Shown one piece after another: positions 4,024 through 29,547 of a stretch of 35,360 nucleotides of DNA. A program made the position numbers and the translations under genes. The stretch lies in contig JAUSKG010000005.1 in assembly GCA_030647005.1 (NCBI GenBank), forward strand, positions 1-35,360, in the 5' to 3' direction. The stretch comes from a bacterium (GTDB lineage: Bacteria > Patescibacteriota > Patescibacteriia > JACPHY01). The notes beneath the pieces are model-generated. The model was not told the origin of the DNA, did no database searches, and worked only from the letters and a program-made list of their open reading frames with translations. How positions within the stretch are numbered: the stretch's first letter is position 1; every line of letters starts with the position of its first letter.

Positions 4024-4827
4024 TCATCGCGGGCGATGCGCGAGGACGGAGGTGAGGAGGAAGATCGCAACGGCGATGAGGACAATGGTGGCACCGCTCG
4101 CGAGATTGAAAACGAATGAGGCGGTGAGGCCGAGGATAACGGAGAGCACGGAGCACGCGACGGCGATCGCCCACGTGGCTCGGAAGCCCAGGCGCAGCTG
4201 CATCGCCGCGAGCACGGGAACGACCATGAGCGCGCCGATGAGGAGGAGACCGACGACGTTGATGGCGATGGCGATCGTTGCGGCACCGAGTACGGCGAGC
4301 GCGCGGTTGAGGAACCGTACCGGCAAACCGGCGGCGAGTGCGACATCCTCATCGAGCGACACGGCAAAGAGAAGCCGCCAGAGAAGCACCGCCGCGAGCA
4401 CGGTCATCGCGCCAACAATGGCGATTGCGACGATGGACGCGCTCGAAACCGTGAGGATGCTTCCGAAGAGGAAGCTCGCGATGTTCACACCTGCGGCCGG
4501 TTGCAGGCCGAGGAGCACGACGCCGAGCGCGAGACCGCCGAAGAGGAAGAGCGTCATGATCGCATCGGGCGCGAGCGCGCGCCGCTCGCGGAGGCGTTCG
4601 ATGCCGAGCGCGGCGAGCACACACGCGACGAGTGCGGCCCACACGGGAGCAACACCAACGAACAAGCCGCCCGCGATACCCGCGAGTGAAATGTGTGCGA
4701 GCGTATCCGCCATGATCGCGTAGCGTCGCACGACGAAGAAAATGCCGATCGTCGGCGCGACGACCGCGAGGATGAGGCCGGCGGCGAGCGCGCGAACCAT
4801 GAAGTCGTACTGGAAGAAATCGAGCAT
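4024..4827 (-). CDS. znuB: zinc/manganese ABC transporter permease (ZnuB-like), 267 aa
   Basis: This is the membrane subunit of a cluster 9-type metal-chelate ABC importer, expected to form a homodimeric channel in the cytoplasmic membrane. The protein is almost wholly hydrophobic, with about eight to nine helices. It carries the family hallmark RRYAIMADTLAHISLAGIA near residues 29-47, the cytoplasmic helix that docks on the ATPase, and a typical glycine-rich C-terminal half. The length is normal for ZnuB/MntB/TroC proteins. The start at 4827 lies 4 nt after the znuC stop codon and has TATG context without a Shine-Dalgarno site. Its place with znuC, znuA and zur points to zinc rather than manganese. 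The metal assignment rests on context. Confidence 0.88.
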   Translation of the reverse strand: MLDFFQYDFMVRALAAGLILAVVAPTIGIFFVVRRYAIMADTLAHISLAGIAGGLFVGVAPVWAALVACVLAALGIERLRERRALAPDAIMTLFLFGGLALGVVLLGLQPAAGVNIASFLFGSILTVSSASIVAIAIVGAMTVLAAVLLWRLLFAVSLDEDVALAAGLPVRFLNRALAVLGAATIAIAINVVGLLLIGALMVVPVLAAMQLRLGFRATWAIAVACSVLSVILGLTASFVFNLASGATIVLIAVAIFLLTSVLAHRPR

Positions 4828-4831
4828 ACGG

Positions 4832-5590
4832 CTACGCGCTGTGGTGCGACACGAGTTCATCACGGCTCGCATGGAGGATGGTTCGGAGCTCCGCACCACC
4901 GATGTGACACGCGTGTGCACCGTGGCACACAAGCTCGTGGCGGAGACAGATCGCCGCGTCTGCCTCGCGGACGATGCGGTGGACATCGTGGGTGACAAAG
5001 AGGATGGTCGTCCCCGTGCCATGGATCGCACGGAGCGTCGCGTAGAACTCTTCGCGTGATTGGGGGTCGAGTCCGTCAATCGGCTCATCGAGGACGAGGA
5101 GGTCTGGCGTGGCGGCGAGTGCGCGGGCGAGCAACACGCGCTGGCGCTCGCCACCGGAGAGCGAGCTCACCGTCCGGCGGAGGAGGTGCGTGATGCCGAG
5201 GACATCCACCGCAGCAGCAATCGCGCGACGATCCTCCGCCGCGAGACGACGGAACAGCCCGACGCGCTGCGTCCGTCCGGCGGCAACGACCTCGCGGACG
5301 GTCGCGGGAAAGTGCTCATCAATACGTCCGCCGCGCTGCGCGATGTACCCGACGCGACGACGAACGCGTGCGTCGCTCACCGGTACTCCAAAGAGCCGCA
5401 CGATACCCGCAGATGGCGTGTCGAGACCGAGGAGCGTTCGGAGGAGCGTCGTCTTCCCACCACCATTCGGACCAATCATCGCCACGTACGACCCGGCATC
5501 AATCGAAAACGAAAAGTCCTCGCAGATGGTCATCCCACCGCGCCGGAGCGTGAGCGCATTGACGGCAATCGCCGGTGTTCCTACTGACAT
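4832..5590 (-). CDS. znuC: zinc/manganese ABC transporter ATP-binding protein (ZnuC-like), 252 aa
   Basis: This is the ATPase subunit that powers metal import through ZnuB. All nucleotide-binding motifs are present: Walker A GPNGGGKT (40-47), the signature LSGGERQ (144-150), Walker B LLVLDEP (164-170), a D-loop GLDP and the switch histidine H201 (TH in FVTHDVH). The C-terminal tail is His- and Cys-rich (CLRHELVCHGAHACH), which could sense or bind metal. The start at 5590 overlaps the last 10 nt of znuA, consistent with translational coupling. It is the second gene of the znuA-znuC-znuB-yibE/F cluster, transcribed from the Zur-controlled promoter near 6510. Confidence 0.9.
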   Translation of the reverse strand: MSVGTPAIAVNALTLRRGGMTICEDFSFSIDAGSYVAMIGPNGGGKTTLLRTLLGLDTPSAGIVRLFGVPVSDARVRRRVGYIAQRGGRIDEHFPATVREVVAAGRTQRVGLFRRLAAEDRRAIAAAVDVLGITHLLRRTVSSLSGGERQRVLLARALAATPDLLVLDEPIDGLDPQSREEFYATLRAIHGTGTTILFVTHDVHRIVREADAAICLRHELVCHGAHACHIGGAELRTILHASRDELVSHHSA

Positions 5591-6501
5591 GCCATTGCAG
5601 TGCGAAGATTCGTGAGGTTCTCACCCATGACCGAGAGGTACGATGCGCCCGATGCGCGCTCGGCATCCGTGAGGCCTTCCAGGGGATTGAAGACGAGCGT
5701 TGCTGCGCCGATCTCGCGCGCGAGCGTCTCCGCGAGCTCGTGACTCACGAGCGTCTCGAAGAAGACGTGGCGCACTCCGTGTGTACGCGCTTCCCGCGCA
5801 ATGGCCGCGAGCGTACCCGCGGACGGCTCGACATCTGGAGAGAGTCCCGCGATCGCGAGCACCTCGAAATCGTACGCGTCGGCGAGGTACTGGAATGCGG
5901 CGTGCGATGTGACGACGATGCGGCGACCGCAGGTGGCGAGGCCGTCCGCATACGCGCGATCGAGCGCGATGAGCTGTACGAGGAACGCACCTGCGTTCGC
6001 GCGGTACGCGCTCGCGTGCGCACCATCATGTGCAATGAGTGCATCGCGCATCGCCGCGACCTGACGCTGCGCGTGTACGGGGTACAGCCAGAAGTGCGGA
6101 TCGAAATCGTCATGGTCATCATCCCCCGCGGGGAGCAATCCGTCTATCACCTCCCGCATCTCCAGCACTGTGACACCACGCTCCACTGCCGATGGAACGA
6201 GATCGGTCACCCATGCATCAATACCGCCATTGACGAGCAGGAGGTCCGCATCGTAGAGACGTGCAATATCGTTGGGCGTCGGCTCAAAATCATGCGGCTC
6301 CACGCCAGCGGGGGTCAGCGTCTCGACGGTGACGAACTCCCCACCAACCTGTCGCGCGAACTCCGCGAGCGGGTAGAAACTCGCGGCGACACGCACGCGC
6401 CCGTCGTCGCGCACGCGCTGGGGTACGGTTTTTTTCGTTACAACCACGACGAGAAGCGCGATGACGGCGATGACGAGCACGCTGCCGATGTACTTTCGCA
6501 T
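5581..6501 (-). CDS. znuA: zinc-binding ABC transporter substrate-binding protein (ZnuA-like), 306 aa
   Basis: This is the extracytoplasmic metal-binding receptor of the importer, TroA/ZnuA superfamily. The three metal-ligand histidines are visible in family context: H70 in GVEPHDFEPTP, H136 in DPHFWLYP and H200 in TSHAAFQYLA. An acidic ligand is expected near FNPLEGL. A short Asp/His-rich loop (DDDHDDFDPH) is a typical zinc feature. The N-terminus (residues 1-22) is a membrane helix without a lipobox cysteine, so the protein is probably anchored by an uncleaved helix. The ATG at 6501 has the context CCTATG and lies about 7 nt from the putative -10 TATACT, so the message may be leaderless. 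It is the first gene of the operon, with the Zur box immediately upstream. Confidence 0.92.
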   Translation of the reverse strand: MRKYIGSVLVIAVIALLVVVVTKKTVPQRVRDDGRVRVAASFYPLAEFARQVGGEFVTVETLTPAGVEPHDFEPTPNDIARLYDADLLLVNGGIDAWVTDLVPSAVERGVTVLEMREVIDGLLPAGDDDHDDFDPHFWLYPVHAQRQVAAMRDALIAHDGAHASAYRANAGAFLVQLIALDRAYADGLATCGRRIVVTSHAAFQYLADAYDFEVLAIAGLSPDVEPSAGTLAAIAREARTHGVRHVFFETLVSHELAETLAREIGAATLVFNPLEGLTDAERASGASYLSVMGENLTNLRTAMACQ

Positions 6502-6609: not shown

Positions 6610-7023
6610 ATGACTTCCTCTCGCATCACTGCCGCACTCAACGGTGCCTCCCTGCGGGCGACACCCGCGCGCATCGCACTCATCGCCGCGCTCGAACGCG
6701 CGGCGAAACCGCTCGCCGTCCCCGAGCTCGCCGAACGCCTGCGTGGTACCGTCAACCAAGCGACGCTCTACCGTGCACTCCAGCAACTCTCGGACGCGGG
6801 ACTCATCCGTCGCGTGAACCTTGAACACGACCACGCGCACTACGAACGTGTAACGGACGACCACCACCACCTCGTCTGCACGACGTGCGGACGCGTGGAG
6901 GATGTTGCGCAGTGCACCATAGACCGACTCACCTCCCGCACGCTCCGTGCGTCCGAGCACTTCGCGAGCATCGAGCGCCATGCACTCGAGTTCTTCGGGA
7001 CGTGCAATGCGTGCGCGCGGTAG
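6610..7023 (+). CDS. zur: Fur-family transcriptional regulator, probably Zur, 137 aa
   Basis: This is a metal-dependent DNA-binding repressor of the Fur family. An N-terminal winged helix (about residues 18-70) contains the family signature VNQATLYRALQQLSDAGLI. The C-terminal metal/dimer domain carries the His cluster H73, H75 and H77 (EHDHAHYER), the HHHLVC region with the structural-zinc pair C90 and C93, and the second pair C132 and C135. The full zinc site set and 137-residue length fit Fur and Zur equally. The neighbouring zinc-type importer makes Zur the better call. The operator at 6511-6537 suggests it controls both itself and znuACB. It is monocistronic and ends at a strong terminator. 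Two direct copies of GACTCGTCAA (6555-6579 region) lie in its leader, of unknown meaning. Confidence 0.88.
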   Translation: MTSSRITAALNGASLRATPARIALIAALERAAKPLAVPELAERLRGTVNQATLYRALQQLSDAGLIRRVNLEHDHAHYERVTDDHHHLVCTTCGRVEDVAQCTIDRLTSRTLRASEHFASIERHALEFFGTCNACAR

Positions 7024-7281: not shown

Positions 7282-9069
7282 CTATCGTATGAATACGCAA
7301 GTGGAAGCCGCATCTCTCGTATCGGGAGTCGCGTCCTCCGGAAACGCAGCGACCGGTGTCATGTGGAGCACCTCTGCGAGGGTGATCGCGCCCTGCAATG
7401 CCTTCGCTACAGCATCATCGAGGAGCACCGTCATGCCATCCTGTCGCGTCTGGGCGGCAAGAACGTCCCTCGAGGCGCGGGTGCAGATCATCGCACGCAT
7501 CATATCGGTCATCTCCAGAACCTCGAACACGCCAACCCGTCCGGAGAAACCGGAGTACTGACAGCGGTCGCAGCCCCTCCCCTCGGAGACCGAGAGCCGA
7601 TCGAGATCGTGGTGGCCGTGACGCTCCAGTGCGGCAACGAGTGTGGGGATGCGCGCGATCTCTCGCTGCTCATCCGCGGAGCAATGCCGGAGCGTACGAC
7701 ATGCCGTACAGAGCTTCCGCACGAGCCGCTGCGCGATGATCCCACGCAGTGCGGACGCGACGAAGAACGGAGCGGCACCCATGGCGATGAGGCGTTGGAG
7801 CGCGTCCACTGCACCATCCGCGTGGAGCGTCGCGAAGACGAGACGGTTGGCCATCGCGTGCTCGATGGCAATCCCCGCGGTCTCCGCATCGTGGAGCGCA
7901 TCAACCGCGATGATGTCGGGGTCCTCGCGCACGATGGCGCGGATGCCCTGCGCGAACGTGCGATCCGCTCGGGGACCTCCCGACACCTGGTGGACACCCT
8001 CGATATCGTACGCGATCGGATCCTCAACCGTGGCAATACGCACCCCGCGCCGATTGAGCATCGTGAGCATCGCGTAGAGCGTCGTCGTGATACCAGAACC
8101 CGTGGGACCGGTGACGAGGAGCATCCCCTGGGGGTGCGAGACCTGCCGATGAACGCGGACGAGATCGTCGTCCGCAAGTCCAATGGTCTGGAGTGAGAAC
8201 TGCCGTGCGTGCGATGCGAGGAGGCGCAGGACGACGCGCTCCCCCGCTCCCTCGGGCACGATGGAGACACGGACAGCGGCGGTGCTCTCGCGCTTGGTCC
8301 GATCGCCACGCACGTCGCCGACGACTGAGAAGCGGAATTTCCCATCCTGTGCCACGCGATGTGCGTCGGTCTGCAGCTGTGCGAGCATCCGTACCCGTAC
8401 GAGGAGCGCCTGCTGGAGCGTGCTCGGCATCTCGAACGCATCGTGGAGCATACCATCGATGCGGAAGGACACGCGGATGTGGTCACGGTGCAGCGTGATG
8501 GAGATATCCGACGCGCGATTCTCATGCCCGTACTGGAGCAACGCGTCCACCACCTCGACCACTGCACGATCGCGCTCCTCGCGTGGCTGCCGGAAATCTC
8601 GCACCGTACGCAGGAGGCGTTCGAGCACCTCGCGGATGCTCATGTGGTACTGATCGAGCGCGACGCGCACCACGCGGGGTGTCGCGTGGTGCGGGAGCAC
8701 CGGTACACCGATGTACTTCGCGATGACGTGGATGACCTCGTGATCATCCGGATGTACCATCGCGAGCTTCACACCGGCGTCGGTCTGCGCGAACGGCATG
8801 ACCTCCCTGCTCCGCGCGACGAGCTCCGGTACAAGCCCGAGCACTTCCGCGGGTATCGGGCTGATCGCACGAATGAACGGGACACCGTAGTGCCGCTCGG
8901 CGAGGAGGAGGCCGAGATCATCTTCCGCCATGGCCCCCCGATCCACGCACACGTCCCGGATGTCGCGTCCCACGCGACACGCTTCCGCGACGACACGCGC
9001 GAACGTTTCTGCGGAAACGTACCCGGGATGGACGAGGAGCTCTTCCCATCGCTCCGTGGACAGCTGCAT
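7282..9069 (-). CDS. PilB/GspE-family ATPase homologue with altered Walker A and Walker B, 595 aa
   Basis: The family is the secretion/type IV pilus assembly ATPases. The order is normal: a GspE_N-like N-terminal domain (about 1-145), a linker, the N2 domain (about 165-285) and the RecA-like domain (about 290-540), including a zinc tetracysteine (LCTAC and GCDRC). The Walker A reads GPTGSGIT (321-328), with Ile327 where lysine is required. Walker B reads DPDIIAVDAL (383-392), with Ala391 in place of the catalytic glutamate. The His-box TLHADG and Asp-box TVEDP are kept. ATP hydrolysis is therefore probably lost or very weak. It starts 18 nt after pyruvate kinase and no pilus genes are adjacent, so it may be a regulatory or structural paralogue. 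Confidence 0.85.
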   Translation of the reverse strand: MQLSTERWEELLVHPGYVSAETFARVVAEACRVGRDIRDVCVDRGAMAEDDLGLLLAERHYGVPFIRAISPIPAEVLGLVPELVARSREVMPFAQTDAGVKLAMVHPDDHEVIHVIAKYIGVPVLPHHATPRVVRVALDQYHMSIREVLERLLRTVRDFRQPREERDRAVVEVVDALLQYGHENRASDISITLHRDHIRVSFRIDGMLHDAFEMPSTLQQALLVRVRMLAQLQTDAHRVAQDGKFRFSVVGDVRGDRTKRESTAAVRVSIVPEGAGERVVLRLLASHARQFSLQTIGLADDDLVRVHRQVSHPQGMLLVTGPTGSGITTTLYAMLTMLNRRGVRIATVEDPIAYDIEGVHQVSGGPRADRTFAQGIRAIVREDPDIIAVDALHDAETAGIAIEHAMANRLVFATLHADGAVDALQRLIAMGAAPFFVASALRGIIAQRLVRKLCTACRTLRHCSADEQREIARIPTLVAALERHGHHDLDRLSVSEGRGCDRCQYSGFSGRVGVFEVLEMTDMMRAMICTRASRDVLAAQTRQDGMTVLLDDAVAKALQGAITLAEVLHMTPVAAFPEDATPDTRDAASTCVFIR

Positions 9070-9087: not shown

Positions 9088-10497
9088 TTACTCCACCATC
9101 ACCCGATTGGTGGTTCCGGGATGACCCCAGGGTTCACCGGTGACAATGACGAGCTTCACGCGCTGCGGTTGTTTGCGACGCTGCGTGATCGCACGGCGTG
9201 CGCGGGTGAGGAATGGACCCGCCTCCTTCGTCATGGGCACGAGCACCGGCACGATGCCGTAGGAGAGATTGAGCTGGCGCTGCACGGTCGCATCGGGCGT
9301 TGCCGCGTACACCGGCAGTTGCGGCCGGAATCGTGCCACACGTCGCGCCGTGCGTCCGGTTGCGGTCGCAACGAGGATGCCCGCAACCGTCGGGATGTGC
9401 GCTGCGAGGAGCGCGGCACATTCCGCGACGACATCCGCGGGATCCATGCGGCCGGGTGCGGGGAGCGAGACACCGATATCATCGAGCGACGTCGCCTCGA
9501 TCTCCGCCGCGATCGCGCTGAGCATCTCGACGGCCTCAACGGGGTACTCGCCCGTCGCGCTCTCGCCGGAGAGCATGACCGCGTCCGTGTGGTCCATGAT
9601 CGCGTTGGCGACATCGGAGACCTCCGCACGTGTCGGCCGCGGGTTGCGGATCATGGAGTCGAGCATCTGCGTCGCCACGACCACGGGCTTGCCGGCGGCG
9701 TGCGTCTTCTCGATGATCGTCTTCTGGTGCACGGGAACCTCTGCCGCCGGCAGCTCCACGCCGAGATCACCGCGCGCGACCATGATGCCGTCCGCAGCGG
9801 CGAGGATCTCATCGAAGTGCGTGATGGCCTCCGGCTTCTCGATCTTCACGATGATTTTTTGATTGCCGCCGAGCTTGCGCACGAGTTGCCGAAGCGCGAG
9901 CACGTCGCTCGCGCTGCGAACGAACGAGAGCGCAATCCAATCCGCGCCCTGCGCAACCGCGAACGCCGCATCCTTCCGATCCTTCAAGGCGAGCGCCGGA
10001 AGCGCGAGGTGCGTCTCCGGCAAGTTCATACCCTTGTGCGACGTGAGTGTACCGCCGGTGACGACTGTGCACGCGATGTCCCGCCCTCGGACGCGCACGA
10101 CGAGCACCTCGATGAGGCCATCGTCCAGGAGGATGCGCTGGCCCACGCGGACATCATCGTGGAGGCCGCGGTACGTGAGCGGTATCTTCTTGCCATCGAA
10201 CGTCGTGCTCGCGGTCGTGAAGATGACGGGCTTCCCGCGCGTGAGCGTCACGCCAACTTCCGGGAGCACACCAACGCGAATCTTTGGGCCCTGGAGGTCT
10301 GCGAGGATAGCGAGCGGCTCACCCGTTTGTTTCGCCACCGCGCGGATACGCGTAATCGCCGTACGGTGCCACGCGTGATCGCCGTGCGACATGTTCAGCC
10401 GACACACGTTCATCCCCGCCCGCACCATGGCGGTGAGTGTGGCCTTTGTCTCCGATGCCGGCCCAATGGTCGCGACGATTTTCGTGCGCTTGTGCAT
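9088..10497 (-). CDS. pyk: pyruvate kinase, 469 aa
   Basis: This enzyme converts phosphoenolpyruvate and ADP to pyruvate and ATP, the last step of glycolysis. The hallmarks are present: the N-terminal KIVATIGPAS and RLNMSHGDH, the active-site signature IIVKIEKPEAI, the metal-binding MVARGDLGVELP, and the ATQMLDSM and DAVMLSGESA stretches. The length fits the standard A, B and C domains, with no extra C-terminal PEP-utiliser domain. The start at 10497 has the context GCTATG and lies 17 nt past the -10 TACACT, implying a very short leader. It is the first gene of a unit with the PilB-like ATPase and the Cys-rich protein. Confidence 0.96.
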   Translation of the reverse strand: MHKRTKIVATIGPASETKATLTAMVRAGMNVCRLNMSHGDHAWHRTAITRIRAVAKQTGEPLAILADLQGPKIRVGVLPEVGVTLTRGKPVIFTTASTTFDGKKIPLTYRGLHDDVRVGQRILLDDGLIEVLVVRVRGRDIACTVVTGGTLTSHKGMNLPETHLALPALALKDRKDAAFAVAQGADWIALSFVRSASDVLALRQLVRKLGGNQKIIVKIEKPEAITHFDEILAAADGIMVARGDLGVELPAAEVPVHQKTIIEKTHAAGKPVVVATQMLDSMIRNPRPTRAEVSDVANAIMDHTDAVMLSGESATGEYPVEAVEMLSAIAAEIEATSLDDIGVSLPAPGRMDPADVVAECAALLAAHIPTVAGILVATATGRTARRVARFRPQLPVYAATPDATVQRQLNLSYGIVPVLVPMTKEAGPFLTRARRAITQRRKQPQRVKLVIVTGEPWGHPGTTNRVMVE

Positions 10498-10514
10498 AGC
10501 GGTTATCACCAACC

Positions 10515-10523
10515 AGTGTACCA
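10515..10523 (-). promoter_or_regulatory. extended -10 promoter of pyk
   Basis: The minus strand reads TGGTACACT, an extended -10 with hexamer at 10520-10515. No good -35 is seen. Transcription should start about 10 nt before the ATG. Confidence 0.45.
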
Positions 10524-10569
10524 CGCTGCGCGCGGTTATCTTTCCACTCGTGCGACTGCGGAACCACAT

Positions 10570-10685
10570 GTCATTGCGAGGAACGAGTCCGCGAGTGACG
10601 TGGCAATCCCGGTCATATCGGTACAAGGTGAAAGCCGGGTGCGCTCATGGCCGGGATTGCCGCGTCGCGGACTCCTCGCAATGAC
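10570..10685. repeat. MITE-like palindromic repeat, copy R1
   Basis: The 116-bp element has perfect 13-bp terminal inverted repeats (GTCATTGCGAGGA and its complement). An internal segment contains GGTACAAGGTGAAAGCCGGG. The copy R2 at 13255-13366 carries the same internal segment in the opposite orientation. It contains no coding potential. Confidence 0.85.
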
Positions 10686-10690
10686 ACGAG

Positions 10691-10777: not shown

Positions 10778-13066
10778 CTACTCCCAGTGGACCAACTGAC
10801 ACGCGCCATCCTTCACGTCGCCCATGAAGGCGAAGAGGAAGAGCGCGGCATCGCGAATGCCGCGGCACAGGGCGCAGCAGCACGCGAACCCGAACACGAA
10901 CGGCCATGCGCAGGCGGCACGGAAACGCGCCGCCATGGGCGAACGCCAGAACGCGCGGAGCAGGGCGTCCAGCTGGAGCCCTCGGACAAACCCGAGGAGG
11001 AGCTGGAACGTGCTCATCAGGAGCACCCCGAAAATGAATTCGGAGACAAGCTCCACGCCGTGGAGACGCTGCATCATTCCCGCCCACACCACGAAACGCT
11101 CCGTGCGCGTACCCTCGATGAGGACGCGCTCTGCTTCCTCCGCACCGGCGATTTCGTCAGCGAACGACGCGGCGACTCTTTCGCACACATCAGTATAGTC
11201 CTGCACAGAAACACCGAACGGAGGGATCTCATGCGCGTACCACCGCGAATCCCACTGCCAGTGCTCCTGGTAGCACGTCTTGCTCAGTTCGGCGACGAGC
11301 GCGGTCGGGTCATCGCGGAGCGATGCGAGCGTGGCGCGAAGCCATGCTTCGACTTGGGCGACATGCGCATCTATCGCGCGCCGCCGTTCATCGTACTCGG
11401 CGTAGTCCCTCCACTGCCGCGCAGTTGCCTCTGCATCGGCTTGCGCGATCATATCCTTGCCGGTTTGATACACAGCGCGGTAGCGATCCATCACCGCCGC
11501 ACAGACCGCCACGGGGGTGGCGCAACGCACGGGGTCCTCCCAACTCCCGTCTCCAATGCACACCCGTGGGCCGTCGTTCTTGTAGAACCACGCACCCTGC
11601 TGAAGCAGGCATCGTGCGTCCACCCACTCCGTCAGCATGCGGGGATCATCAGCGGGAAGATGCTCCACCTCGCGGAGCCCTACAGCACTGAAGAGTGCTT
11701 CTTGCTTGTGCACGATCTGCGAGCGGATCGTGCTGTAGTGCTCGGCCCGTGCCTCCAGGTGGGCGACGGTGACCGCGAGGAGCCCTTCCACCTCGACACT
11801 GACACGTTGCACGAGCGACGTACGCTCGAACGGTGTTGAGAAGGCACTCGATGTCCCGATGCCGAACGCATCGTGATAGAACACCACGCGCCACCAATCG
11901 TACCACTCCTGAGGATACGCGTTTTCGGAGGTCGCCGCCGCCACGCCCACTCCCTGCCAGTTGTCGGAGAGATAGCGAAGGTCATAGGGGAAGCCACGCA
12001 ACTGGAAGCCAATCTCTTCGAGCTGCGAGTACGTTCGCTCCTGCGCATCGAGCGTTTGGAGGAACAGCACAACATGGGTCTCGAATGCTTCGAGATCGGT
12101 ACGGATTCGCTCATCCATGATGGTAAACGCAGCGAGCGCGAGACGCGTCTCGAACGCATCGAGCTCGATCGCACGCTGGACCGCGTGCGCGTCCATCTCG
12201 GGACGCGCGACTTCTTCGGCCTGTTCGAGCGCGCACGCGTATGCGGCGCGTTCACGCTGCTCTGCGAGCTCCGCGATGTGCGCGGGCTGCCACTCGTAGT
12301 GGTACCATCGCCCAGCGACCATCGCACCGGCTGCGACACCGTACCCAACGAGACCCACGAGACCGGCGGCTACACCGAATGCCGCCGTGCGGCCGTAGCG
12401 CCGAACACCGGCGGCGAACAGCGTCGCGGTGATGCGTACAGCACCGACGGCGAGCGCACCAATACCCCGCACGCCATGCACCACGACGAAGGTGGTGCCG
12501 GATGCGACACCGACGATGGCGAACGCGAGGAACACGAGCACCTGCCTGCGCAAGGCAACGCCGAGCACGTAGCACACGCACGCGGCGGCGACCTTCCAGA
12601 ACACCGGACACCGCGAGACCGGACGGCCGTTCGGGTTGAACGGCTGCTCATCCGGCGGCGAGCGCAGGAAGGCGAGCGTCCGATCGTACGCGACTGCGCG
12701 TCGGCTCCTGTACACGACATCCTCGACACGGAACGCCGAGCACGTCGCACACCCCTCTTGGTGCTTGTGCATCGGGAGCGTAGGCATCGCTCCGTACGAG
12801 AATCCGGTTGCGCAGAACAGCCGTCGCAGCGTGACGATCCACCCACGGTCCTCGCCGTACGCGCGCAGGTAGAGCCGCGCGTACCATGAGTCCTTGTTGA
12901 AGGTGAGCGAGAGGAGCGATCCTCTCCGCCCACACGACGCGCGCCGTGCCGCCGGATTGGCGAGCACGTCCCATGCGATGCCCAACGGGGCGACGAAGAC
13001 GGTCACGATCACCGCCAGTACCATCCCGCAGTACATCACGAGCTGCGCCAACAATCGTGCGATCAT
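10778..13066 (-). CDS. large orphan membrane protein, 762 aa
   Basis: I do not recognise this protein. A first membrane helix (about residues 5-33) is followed by a region of about 110 residues with a CATC pair (EGCATCSAF). A cluster of about four helices follows (about 155-260). A long, mostly helical, charged and tryptophan-rich domain comes next (about 262-650), containing several cysteines (CLLQQ, RVCIGD, RCATPVAVC, KTCYQ) that could form disulfides outside the membrane. Two final membrane segments (about 670-750) include the run FACCCALC. The start at 13066 is supported by GGAGG five bases upstream; an in-frame start at 13084 would include that site. It has its own promoter (13149-13177) and terminator (10691-10724), and the unit lies between inverted repeats R1 and R2. 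Confidence 0.8.
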   Translation of the reverse strand: MIARLLAQLVMYCGMVLAVIVTVFVAPLGIAWDVLANPAARRASCGRRGSLLSLTFNKDSWYARLYLRAYGEDRGWIVTLRRLFCATGFSYGAMPTLPMHKHQEGCATCSAFRVEDVVYRSRRAVAYDRTLAFLRSPPDEQPFNPNGRPVSRCPVFWKVAAACVCYVLGVALRRQVLVFLAFAIVGVASGTTFVVVHGVRGIGALAVGAVRITATLFAAGVRRYGRTAAFGVAAGLVGLVGYGVAAGAMVAGRWYHYEWQPAHIAELAEQRERAAYACALEQAEEVARPEMDAHAVQRAIELDAFETRLALAAFTIMDERIRTDLEAFETHVVLFLQTLDAQERTYSQLEEIGFQLRGFPYDLRYLSDNWQGVGVAAATSENAYPQEWYDWWRVVFYHDAFGIGTSSAFSTPFERTSLVQRVSVEVEGLLAVTVAHLEARAEHYSTIRSQIVHKQEALFSAVGLREVEHLPADDPRMLTEWVDARCLLQQGAWFYKNDGPRVCIGDGSWEDPVRCATPVAVCAAVMDRYRAVYQTGKDMIAQADAEATARQWRDYAEYDERRRAIDAHVAQVEAWLRATLASLRDDPTALVAELSKTCYQEHWQWDSRWYAHEIPPFGVSVQDYTDVCERVAASFADEIAGAEEAERVLIEGTRTERFVVWAGMMQRLHGVELVSEFIFGVLLMSTFQLLLGFVRGLQLDALLRAFWRSPMAARFRAACAWPFVFGFACCCALCRGIRDAALFLFAFMGDVKDGACQLVHWE

Positions 13067-13148
13067 CTCTGCCTCCTCTCCCACCGCTCTCGCGGCGGGT
13101 CTCTAAAGTCACGAATTGTGAATGTGCCAGCCGGAACGCTGACTACCA

Positions 13149-13177: not shown

Positions 13178-13254
13178 GGAGGTTCGCACAACGGAGCGGA
13201 AAAATGACGATAGTGGGCAATTTTACAGAGGATCCCATGCCTCTACCAACGCAT

Positions 13255-13366
13255 GTCATTGCGAGGAGTCCGCGACGCGGCAATCCCGGCCATGAATGCA
13301 CCCGGCTTTCACCTTGTACCGGTATGGCCGGGATTGCCACGCCTCGTGGACGCGGCTCGCAATGAC
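13255..13366. repeat. MITE-like palindromic repeat, copy R2, with an extra half-end
   Basis: This is the inverted counterpart of R1. It begins GTCATTGCGAGGA and ends CTCGCAATGAC, with the shared internal segment in reverse orientation (CCCGGCTTTCACCTTGTACC). A stray extra end (CCTCGCAATGAC) lies at 13381-13392, suggesting a partial duplication or nested copy. Confidence 0.85.
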
Positions 13367-16807: not shown

Positions 16808-16944
16808 CATTTCGAACGATCGAGTCCTCAACCCCCTCCGTCATTTCGACCGACCGAATCCGCGAGGGAGCGGAGAAATCTCTTTTCGCGGTACAAGGAT
16901 CACTGTACTCCAAGACGAGATTTCTCGACTTCGCTCGAAATGAC
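16808..16944. repeat. palindromic repeat of the TCATTTCGA...GAGAAATCTC family, copy E
   Basis: One half unit runs from TCATTTCGACC to GGAGAAATCTC (about 16842-16882). An inverted half follows, from GAGATTTCTCGAC to CGAAATGACGG (about 16917-16946). An additional broken end (GTCATTTCGAACG) lies at about 16807. The right part is read through by the nucleotidyltransferase-like gene, whose last 16 codons it supplies. Confidence 0.8.
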
Positions 16945-17862
16945 GGAAGAGGATCCGCTCGGCATGACGGAAGAGGATCCACTCGGCATGACGGAAGAGG
17001 ATCCGCTCGGCATGACGGAAGAGGATCCACTCGGCATGACGGAAGAGGATCCACTCGGCATGACGAAGGGGGATGGCTGCAACGCCAACTGCGCCATCCA
17101 GGCATCGCGGAACTCCTGCCGCCGATCGTGCGTGTGGAACTTGAGCATGGAATCGTTCATGATGACGCTCGTGTCGCGGTTTGCCTGCGGGAACGCACGG
17201 AGGAGTCGCGGGAGTTGCCATGCGCGTACGAGGGACTCGAGCACCCGCGCGAGTTGCGATGAACGTGCGGCGAGGGATCGCACGCGCATCCCCCACCGCG
17301 GATGGATGGCGCGTGGCTCTGCATCCGGCAGCCAACGCCGCACCCACGCTGCGTTCGCGCTCCAGAACCGATCGTACACGCCACCCGCATCAAACAGCAC
17401 CGTGAGTTGCGTGGGCCAGAAGAGGAGGTAGGGATCGGGGGGAATTGGCGATTGATGATTGACGATTGATGATTGACGTTCGGGGAGCTGGAGCGATTCC
17501 AGACACAGCGCGTCGGTCGTGAGGAAGAACGAGGGACAGAGCGCGTCCGCACCGTGCTCACCAGGACGCTGACGGAAGAGCTTGAGGATGGAGACGATGA
17601 GGAACCGCGCGGTCCAGATGCGCCCGGGCGCGGTGATGATGACGAGGTCAATGTCGCTCGCCGCGCGGCAGTTGCCGTACCCGAGCGCATTCCCGATCGC
17701 AATCATGCGGATGCCGGGTATCCTCCGCAGCACGCGGCTCCACCGTCGCGCCTTCCGGAGCTTGCGCCAGCTCCACTGCGCCTGCCGCTGCCGCCCGACA
17801 TCCAAAATATCCTCCTGCCATCCCTGGAGCGCGAACCACGATCGCCGTGCTTCGCGATCCAT
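16900..17862 (-). CDS. nucleotidyltransferase-like protein with repeat-encoded segments, 320 aa
   Basis: The segment IGNALGYGN...ASDIDLVIIT (about residues 56-77) resembles the minimal nucleotidyltransferase fold, with D70 and D72 as metal-binding acids. No close family can be named and the substrate is unknown. Two oddities are seen. Residues of about 129-138 come from a perfect 14-bp tandem duplication (GATTGATGATTGAC twice, 17450-17477). Residues of about 269-308 are five copies of the octapeptide VMPSGSSS, encoded by a 24-bp tandem array, followed by a tail from a palindromic repeat. I prefer the ATG at 17862 (context CCTATG). A GTG at 17880 overlaps the PRC-barrel stop by four bases and is the alternative. 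Confidence 0.65.
   Translation of the reverse strand: MDREARRSWFALQGWQEDILDVGRQRQAQWSWRKLRKARRWSRVLRRIPGIRMIAIGNALGYGNCRAASDIDLVIITAPGRIWTARFLIVSILKLFRQRPGEHGADALCPSFFLTTDALCLESLQLPERQSSIVNHQSPIPPDPYLLFWPTQLTVLFDAGGVYDRFWSANAAWVRRWLPDAEPRAIHPRWGMRVRSLAARSSQLARVLESLVRAWQLPRLLRAFPQANRDTSVIMNDSMLKFHTHDRRQEFRDAWMAQLALQPSPFVMPSGSSSVMPSGSSSVMPSGSSSVMPSGSSSVMPSGSSSVISSEVEKSRLGVQ
16940..17059. repeat. five tandem 24-bp repeats
   Basis: Five exact-length units begin at 16940, 16964, 16988, 17012 and 17036. Each starts ATGACGGAAGAGGATCC and varies only at one purine (g, a, g, a, a). A sixth, degenerate unit starts at 17060. The unit length is a multiple of three, so copy-number changes keep the reading frame. 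Confidence 0.95.
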
Positions 17863-28938: not shown

Positions 28939-28956
28939 ACATCGTTCAATGATTGC

Positions 28957-29046
28957 ACCGTATGAGATTTCTCACTCCGCTACGCTCCGTTCGAAATGAC
29001 AGGATGGTGTCATTTCGACCGAAGGGAGAAATCTCACACGAAACAC
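28957..29046. repeat. palindromic repeat of the TCATTTCGA/GAGAAATCTC family, copy A
   Basis: About 90 bp run from ACCGTATGAGATTTCTCAC to GAAATCTCACACGAAACACT, with the two halves in inverted orientation around GAAATGAC...GTCATTTC. It is nearly identical to copy B (29355-29449) in the same orientation. It supplies the last codons and the TGA of the GIY-YIG gene. Confidence 0.9.
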
Positions 29047-29330
29047 TCTAGCGAAAGGTCACGCAAATCAGGATTCTGTTGCTTGATGAGTGCCCATTTC
29101 TTCATGCGGCTCCACTTCTTGAGCTCTTTCTCACGCGACAGTGCTCCCATGACCTCGTTACAACATTCATAGTACACGAGATCGTGGCACCGGTAGCGTT
29201 TCGTGAAACCGTCCACGATGCCCTCCCGATGTTCGATGACACGACGCGCGAGATCATTCGTCATACCAATATACGAAACGGTCCGCCACTTGTTCATCAT
29301 GATGTAGACGTAGTATGCGCGCTCCTCCAT
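29034..29330 (-). CDS. GIY-YIG domain endonuclease-like protein, 98 aa
   Basis: This is a stand-alone GIY-YIG protein of the small YhbQ/UPF0213-like type. The motif pair is YVYIM (7-11) and YIGMT (20-24), followed by the catalytic-type NDLARRVIEHR with R30, and the conserved glutamate region GALSREKELKKW. Length is typical for the group. The last residues (ECFV) and the stop codon lie inside repeat copy A, and the gene starts 25 nt inside copy B, so it exactly fills the interval between two direct repeats. AAGG lies 9 nt before the start. Whether it is mobile or cuts DNA is not known. Confidence 0.88.
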   Translation of the reverse strand: MEERAYYVYIMMNKWRTVSYIGMTNDLARRVIEHREGIVDGFTKRYRCHDLVYYECCNEVMGALSREKELKKWSRMKKWALIKQQNPDLRDLSLECFV

Positions 29331-29354
29331 ACACTGAGCCCTTGCCCGTAATGT

Positions 29355-29449
29355 ACCGTGTGAGATTTCTCACTCCGCTACGCTCCATTCGAAATGACAC
29401 GAGGGGTGGTGTCATTTCGACCAACGGGAGAAATCTCACACGAAACATT
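29355..29449. repeat. palindromic repeat of the TCATTTCGA/GAGAAATCTC family, copy B
   Basis: This copy is about 95 bp, nearly identical to copy A and in the same orientation. It differs by a few substitutions and about five extra bases in the loop (GAGGGG). The two copies are 308 bp apart and enclose the GIY-YIG gene. Confidence 0.9.
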
Positions 29450-29547
29450 GTTACGAAGCGGGTGACATTGCGTAGTCAGTGCACTCTGCTCGAAACAACG
29501 GCATAAAAACGATTTGTTCCTTCAGTTCTGCATACATCGTTCTGCGT

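Follow-up and report, generated by a model that had tools for sequence, protein, structure and literature searches.

A predicted pseudo-ATPase of the PilB/GspE family in one genus of Patescibacteriia

What is to be made of a PilB/GspE-like ATPase gene in which an isoleucine codon takes the place of the Walker A lysine and an alanine codon that of the catalytic glutamate? An earlier note raised this question for the gene at 7282-9069 (minus strand) of the window, the whole 35,360-nucleotide stretch of contig JAUSKG010000005.1 analyzed here. The gene encodes 595 residues in an open frame. The product matches the PF00437 core at 303 bits against a cut-off of 24.9, a profile match by which it belongs to the family by descent, and its MshEN match covers residues 61-141. 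It fell under the curated cut-offs of the NCBIfam PilB (TIGR02538, 362.6 of 675.65 bits) and GspE (TIGR02533, 375.4 of 630.25 bits) models, a shortfall that carries little weight by itself. The protein aligns over nearly its whole length with PDB GspE/PilB chains. A structure prediction was made from a two-sequence input (pLDDT 41.5) and no reading given below rests on it. The window genome (G000) is a draft assembly of 1.06 Mb in 35 contigs and is 98% complete. Features near and within the gene are as follows.

4024..6501, minus: AztC-AztA-AztB-like metal (zinc/manganese) ABC transporter; synteny conserved in the same-genus genome G001
6610..7023, plus: Fur/PerR-like regulator, a convergent neighbour, kept beside the G001 copy
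7282..9069, minus: predicted PilB/GspE-family pseudo-ATPase; PF00437 3.1e-90, MshEN 3.3e-09
7561..7572, minus: second zinc CxxC (C500, C503), kept in the homologue alignment
7699..7710, minus: first zinc CxxC (C454, C457), kept in the homologue alignment
7843..7851, minus: HIS-box region, codons 407-409, A-N-R for T-G-H; T407A and H409R common to the G001 orthologue
7897..7899, minus: catalytic Glu position, codon 391, Ala (GCG); equivalent to G. metallireducens (Gm) E395; Ala in the G001 orthologue too
7900..7902, minus: atypical Walker B Gly position, codon 390, Asp (GAT); Asp in the G001 orthologue too
8011..8013, minus: ASP-box Mg2+ Glu position, codon 353, Ala (GCG); equivalent to Gm PilB E357; Ala in G001 too
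8089..8091, minus: Walker A lysine position, codon 327, Ile (ATC); Lys in 57/57 homologues and in the G001 orthologue
9088..10626, minus: pyruvate kinase, 18 nt upstream of the pseudo-ATPase gene; 76% identical in G001 and its neighbour there too

The substituted catalytic site

Direct reading of the DNA bore out both substitutions described in the earlier note. Codon 327 (8091-8089) is ATC within the motif GPTGSG-I-TTT, and codon 391 (7899-7897) is GCG within AVDALHD. When the protein was aligned to the PDB GspE/PilB chains, I327 fell on the Walker A lysine and A391 on the glutamate of GEIRD. The Walker A column holds lysine in 57/57 other homologues, drawn from the window genome and related genomes, and the catalytic column holds glutamate in 57/57, and thus the disabled residues lie beyond ordinary variation. 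Further losses are E353A, G390D, T407A, and H409R. The lost sites are otherwise invariant in the 57 homologues, the sole exception being a glutamine at position 409 in one of them.

The ASP-box residue E357 of G. metallireducens PilB coordinates Mg2+ and E395 is catalytic; R271 and R286 contact E357 as well as the nucleotide, and the HIS-box contact is made by T411, H413, and H420 (PMC5424180). By alignment these functional sites map to A353, A391, R267, R282, A407, R409, and H416 of the window protein. Both arginine fingers (R267 and R282) are therefore present, as is the zinc tetracysteine of the PilB/GspE clade (C454, C457, C500, and C503). Of the residues expected in an active ATPase, the lysine of Walker A GxxxxGKT is replaced by I327, the GE that follows the atypical Walker B strand by D390-A391, and the ASP-box Mg2+ glutamate by A353; the first HIS-box histidine is gone (R409) and the second is retained (H416). 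From these replacements we infer that the catalytic site of this PilB/GspE relative is disabled and that it has no ATPase activity. Some residual activity is conceivable, as a further change, Q382E, which is shared with the G001 orthologue, puts an extra glutamate near Walker B.

The earlier note had also described the rest of the protein as intact. This held for the zinc tetracysteine but not for the remainder. Among the positions that are invariant family-wide (at least 95% conserved among the 57 other homologues), 71/91 are kept and 20/91 are changed. The changed columns concentrate in the four ATPase motifs, with 12/31 changed inside versus 8/60 outside (Fisher p 0.008), the ranges of these motifs having been chosen by us around the known boxes.

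The same-genus orthologue and the canonical paralogues

G001, the one same-genus genome compared (an orthologue sample of n=2), carries a syntenic orthologue on G001:C3 (JAUSKM010000033.1; L060:8330-9835). Its surroundings match those of the window gene: pyruvate kinase on one side, the Fur-AztCAB-YibE genes on the other, and groES and groEL upstream. The two proteins group together in a quick tree (SH-aLRT 99), in which the G001 branch is very long at 5.15 changes per site. They have in common E353A, Q382E, G390D, E391A, T407A, and H409R. The G001 orthologue differs in keeping the Walker A lysine (GPPGAGKTT), in being without the first ~55 residues, and in its other losses, R282C, H416D, and D350E. 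Immediately upstream of the G001 orthologue is a repeat-element copy (GTCATTGCGAGGAG...) that may have cut that gene. A scan of the genome contigs for pyruvate kinase returned the G001 locus plus distant matches only, the next relative after G001 being on an Uhrbacteria contig, which along with the small genome suggests a place in Patescibacteria. The same-family genome G002 gave no pyruvate kinase match at threshold, and its YibE gene has no syntenic copy next to it.

Of the two changes that the earlier note proposed to look for in orthologues, the loss of the catalytic glutamate thus recurs (A391 in G001), whereas the loss of the Walker A lysine does not. Because A353, E382, D390, A391, A407, and R409 are shared but the lysine loss is not, the loss of hydrolysis most likely predates the split of the two species, with the lysine following later in the window lineage. 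The alternative that the lysine was regained in G001 is also conceivable.

The orthologue bears equally on whether the disabled site could be an artefact of sequencing or assembly, as a draft of 35 contigs might suggest. The conversion of AAA or AAG to ATC takes two base changes, so the argument of the earlier note that no single error accounts for it stands, and the 595-residue frame is open. Moreover, the neighbouring changes (E353A, Q382E, G390D, E391A, T407A, and H409R) recur in the independent same-genus genome, so the disabled site cannot be put down to faulty sequencing. This recurrence contradicts the artefact for the Walker B part, codon 327 itself not being shared. Sequencing error as the source of the disabled site was rejected, and an artefact of any kind is hardly credible.

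The window genome encodes three PF00437 proteins, and only the window copy has a damaged site. The second, canonical PilB that the earlier note suggested seeking was found twice over. One canonical PilB lies on contig C10 together with PilM, PilC, and a pilin, and the other is a lone canonical PilB-like gene on contig C16. These canonical paralogues, the candidate partners for the mixed hexamer proposed in the earlier note, are only 30-33% identical to the window protein. The C16 gene (L065:2491-4170), a canonical PilB-like ATPase without PilC, has relatives in G001 (C38) and G002 (C11). The window copy has no adjacent PilC platform gene of the kind expected for a pilus motor. No pilus gene adjoins it, neither PilC nor pilin, as the earlier note had observed, and the only PilC of the genome is that on C10. 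The five close relatives checked (41-45% identity, all belonging to other families of the class) each carry PilC at a distance of about 1.5 kb or less, and so does the canonical PilB on G001:C1. Note that the latter, from the G001 PilB-PilC operon (L059:5031-6491), is without the N-terminal domain, much as the degenerate G001 copy is without part of its own. At the strict threshold 71/381 class genomes matched, with motifs read in a fetched set of loci. All of the fetched PilB homologue loci were canonical, the window's own copy excepted.

The earlier note had further placed the gene in an operon with pyruvate kinase and a Cys/His-rich mini-protein. The pyruvate kinase neighbour was upheld (18 nt away on the same strand) but the mini-protein partner was not confirmed. 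As listed, the pyruvate kinase open reading frame begins at a TTG at 10626, inside a repeat. The true start is probably near 10497, given that the family match starts at residue 43.

Selection, decay, and possible roles

Our preferred reading, to which we give a probability of about 0.62, is that the gene encodes a lineage-specific, genus-level PilB/GspE-family pseudo-ATPase kept in a non-motor role, as a partner or regulator. The main challenge to it is decay. The gene could be a redundant PilB paralogue without PilC that is under relaxed constraint and heading toward a pseudogene, its open frames being leftovers. The window protein and the G001 orthologue are 37% identical, versus 66-90% for the neighbours pyruvate kinase, GroEL, Fur, AztCAB, and YibE, and purifying selection on the pseudo-ATPase gene, judged from these comparisons, is weaker than on its neighbours. 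The 768-residue open reading frame upstream of the pyruvate kinase gene is also fast-evolving (29% identical in G001). The long branch and N-terminal loss of the G001 copy likewise favour decay, as does the fact that the secondary losses differ between the two lineages.

Against decay stand the divergence data for the gene pair. Codon-position identities are 0.53, 0.60, and 0.36 for first, second, and third positions, respectively. Identity at fourfold sites is 40%, only modestly over the roughly 30% expected by chance, and therefore the synonymous positions are near-saturated. Despite this saturation neither copy has a stop codon and second-position identity remains at 0.60. A neutral simulation set to the divergence of the gene pair, which omits indels and codon bias, gave about 11 stop codons per copy (minimum 2) and a protein identity of 14.5% (maximum 19%), versus no stops and 37% in the real pair. 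Neutral decay would thus predict many stops and about 15% identity. Moreover, the residues that replaced the active-site ones are conserved in both orthologues. More widely, 36 conserved columns of the subfamily are lost in both proteins and 17/36 show the same new residue, which has a probability of about 1e-8 at an assumed chance rate of 10%. The near-saturated synonymous sites, the open frames of both copies, and the 37% identity support a derived, fast-evolving protein that would have been under selection over most of its history. Decay as the explanation of the locus is therefore a minority possibility, if a serious one. Recent decay may nonetheless have begun in either species. The long G001 branch calls for caution, and the N-terminal loss, the 5.15 branch, and the R282C, H416D, and D350E losses of G001 would fit decay.

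The protein is a genus-level variant of a known family. Its closest relatives are PilB and GspE (PF00437; G. metallireducens PilB 5tsg, M. xanthus PilB 3jc8, and GspE 4pht and 1p9r), with which it shares the order of N1/MshEN-like domain, N2D, ATPase core, and tetracysteine zinc subdomain, plus the arginine fingers. Unlike them, it has replacements of the Walker A lysine, the ASP-box Mg glutamate, the Walker B glycine, the catalytic glutamate, and one HIS-box histidine. The PilB family acts together with PilC and PilM. Given this, and with domain order, zinc site, and fingers all retained in the window copy, a partner of the pilus apparatus is the favoured role, although this step taken alone is possible rather than probable. 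Under the preferred reading, a PilB of the PilB-PilC type would have parted from PilC in the genus ancestor and ended behind pyruvate kinase, where it would have lost the catalytic glutamate, the ASP-box Mg glutamate, the HIS-box histidine, and the conserved threonine. In the window species the gene would have stayed open, with domain order, zinc site, and arginine fingers retained, and the Walker A lysine would have been lost afterwards in that species only. The product could then serve the pilus machinery of the canonical PilB-PilC operon as a structural or regulatory partner, acting through binding rather than ATP turnover.

A special form of this reading is a switch that binds nucleotide without hydrolysis. 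Loss of the ASP-box glutamate and conversion of the Walker B glycine to aspartate, giving a conventional hhhhD, would have re-wired the Mg2+ site such that the ancestor bound ATP without turnover; in the window species K327I would then have ended tight binding. One genus would thereby have turned a pilus-motor ATPase into a non-hydrolyzing switch or structural subunit that controls pilus assembly, or some other process, through binding only. PilT-like ATPases have glycine in place of the Mg2+-coordinating acidic Walker B residue of other ASCE ATPases, with the ASP-box glutamate substituting for it (PMC5424180). Both orthologues combine E353A with G390D, a combination seen in 0/57 homologues, and the G001 copy has GPPGAGKTT. 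However, two sequences are all that carry the pair of changes, the co-change on a long branch may be coincidence, and the window copy is without the Walker A lysine. We regard the switch as doubtful.

The earlier note had also proposed a c-di-GMP sensor, to which the MshEN match at residues 61-141 would lend itself. There is no GGDEF match in the window genome (98% complete), and hence no known source of c-di-GMP, whereas 8/14 control genomes gave matches. The G001 copy is without the N-terminal ~55 residues that precede the MshEN match. The N-terminal residues of the window protein, judged by eye, are presumably unlike those of c-di-GMP-binding MshEN domains. The proposal found no backing and is very improbable.

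Precedents for family members that act without their own hydrolysis come from mutants. In M. xanthus, the PilB mutant K327A lacks ATPase activity and still signals to exopolysaccharide (EPS) production, an effect absent in the Walker B mutant E391A (PMC5544727). By alignment these are the same two positions as in the window protein, the equal numbers being a coincidence. By analogy, the E391A result would count against a non-motor reading of the window protein. The M. xanthus mutants are laboratory alleles of a working motor, whereas the window protein is a natural paralogue beside canonical motors and has more losses. PilT/PilU pairs are a second precedent, as ATPase-dead PilT still supports PilU (PMC6762196, PMC9815625). 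Unlike the present case, PilT is naturally active, and the other two PF00437 proteins of the window genome are PilB-like. No natural PilB pseudo-ATPase is described in the literature searched (open-access texts, a few phrases). Laboratory dead PilB and PilT mutants probe roles of the motors besides ATP burning, and this species pair appears to be a natural version, changed at the same two positions and at others besides, in a genome that also has working motors. Should PilC, PilM, or a canonical PilB prove to be bound by the protein, it would give a direct handle on the non-motor roles of the family in small-genome bacteria.

Repeats elsewhere in the window

The 768-residue open reading frame upstream of pyruvate kinase (10778-13084) is flanked by 88-nt inverted repeat arms (10599-10686 and 13254-13341) that are 95% complementary. 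It has no Pfam or NCBIfam match, and related GTCATTGCGAGGAG copies lie nearby. A tandem 24-nt repeat (CGCTCGGCATGACGGAAGAGGATC-like) of about 6 copies occupies 16908-17098, inside overlapping open reading frames. At 28954-29457, two direct-repeat families of 54 nt each, with copies 398-402 nt apart, lie around an open reading frame (29034-29330, minus strand) that is GIY-YIG-like by eye.
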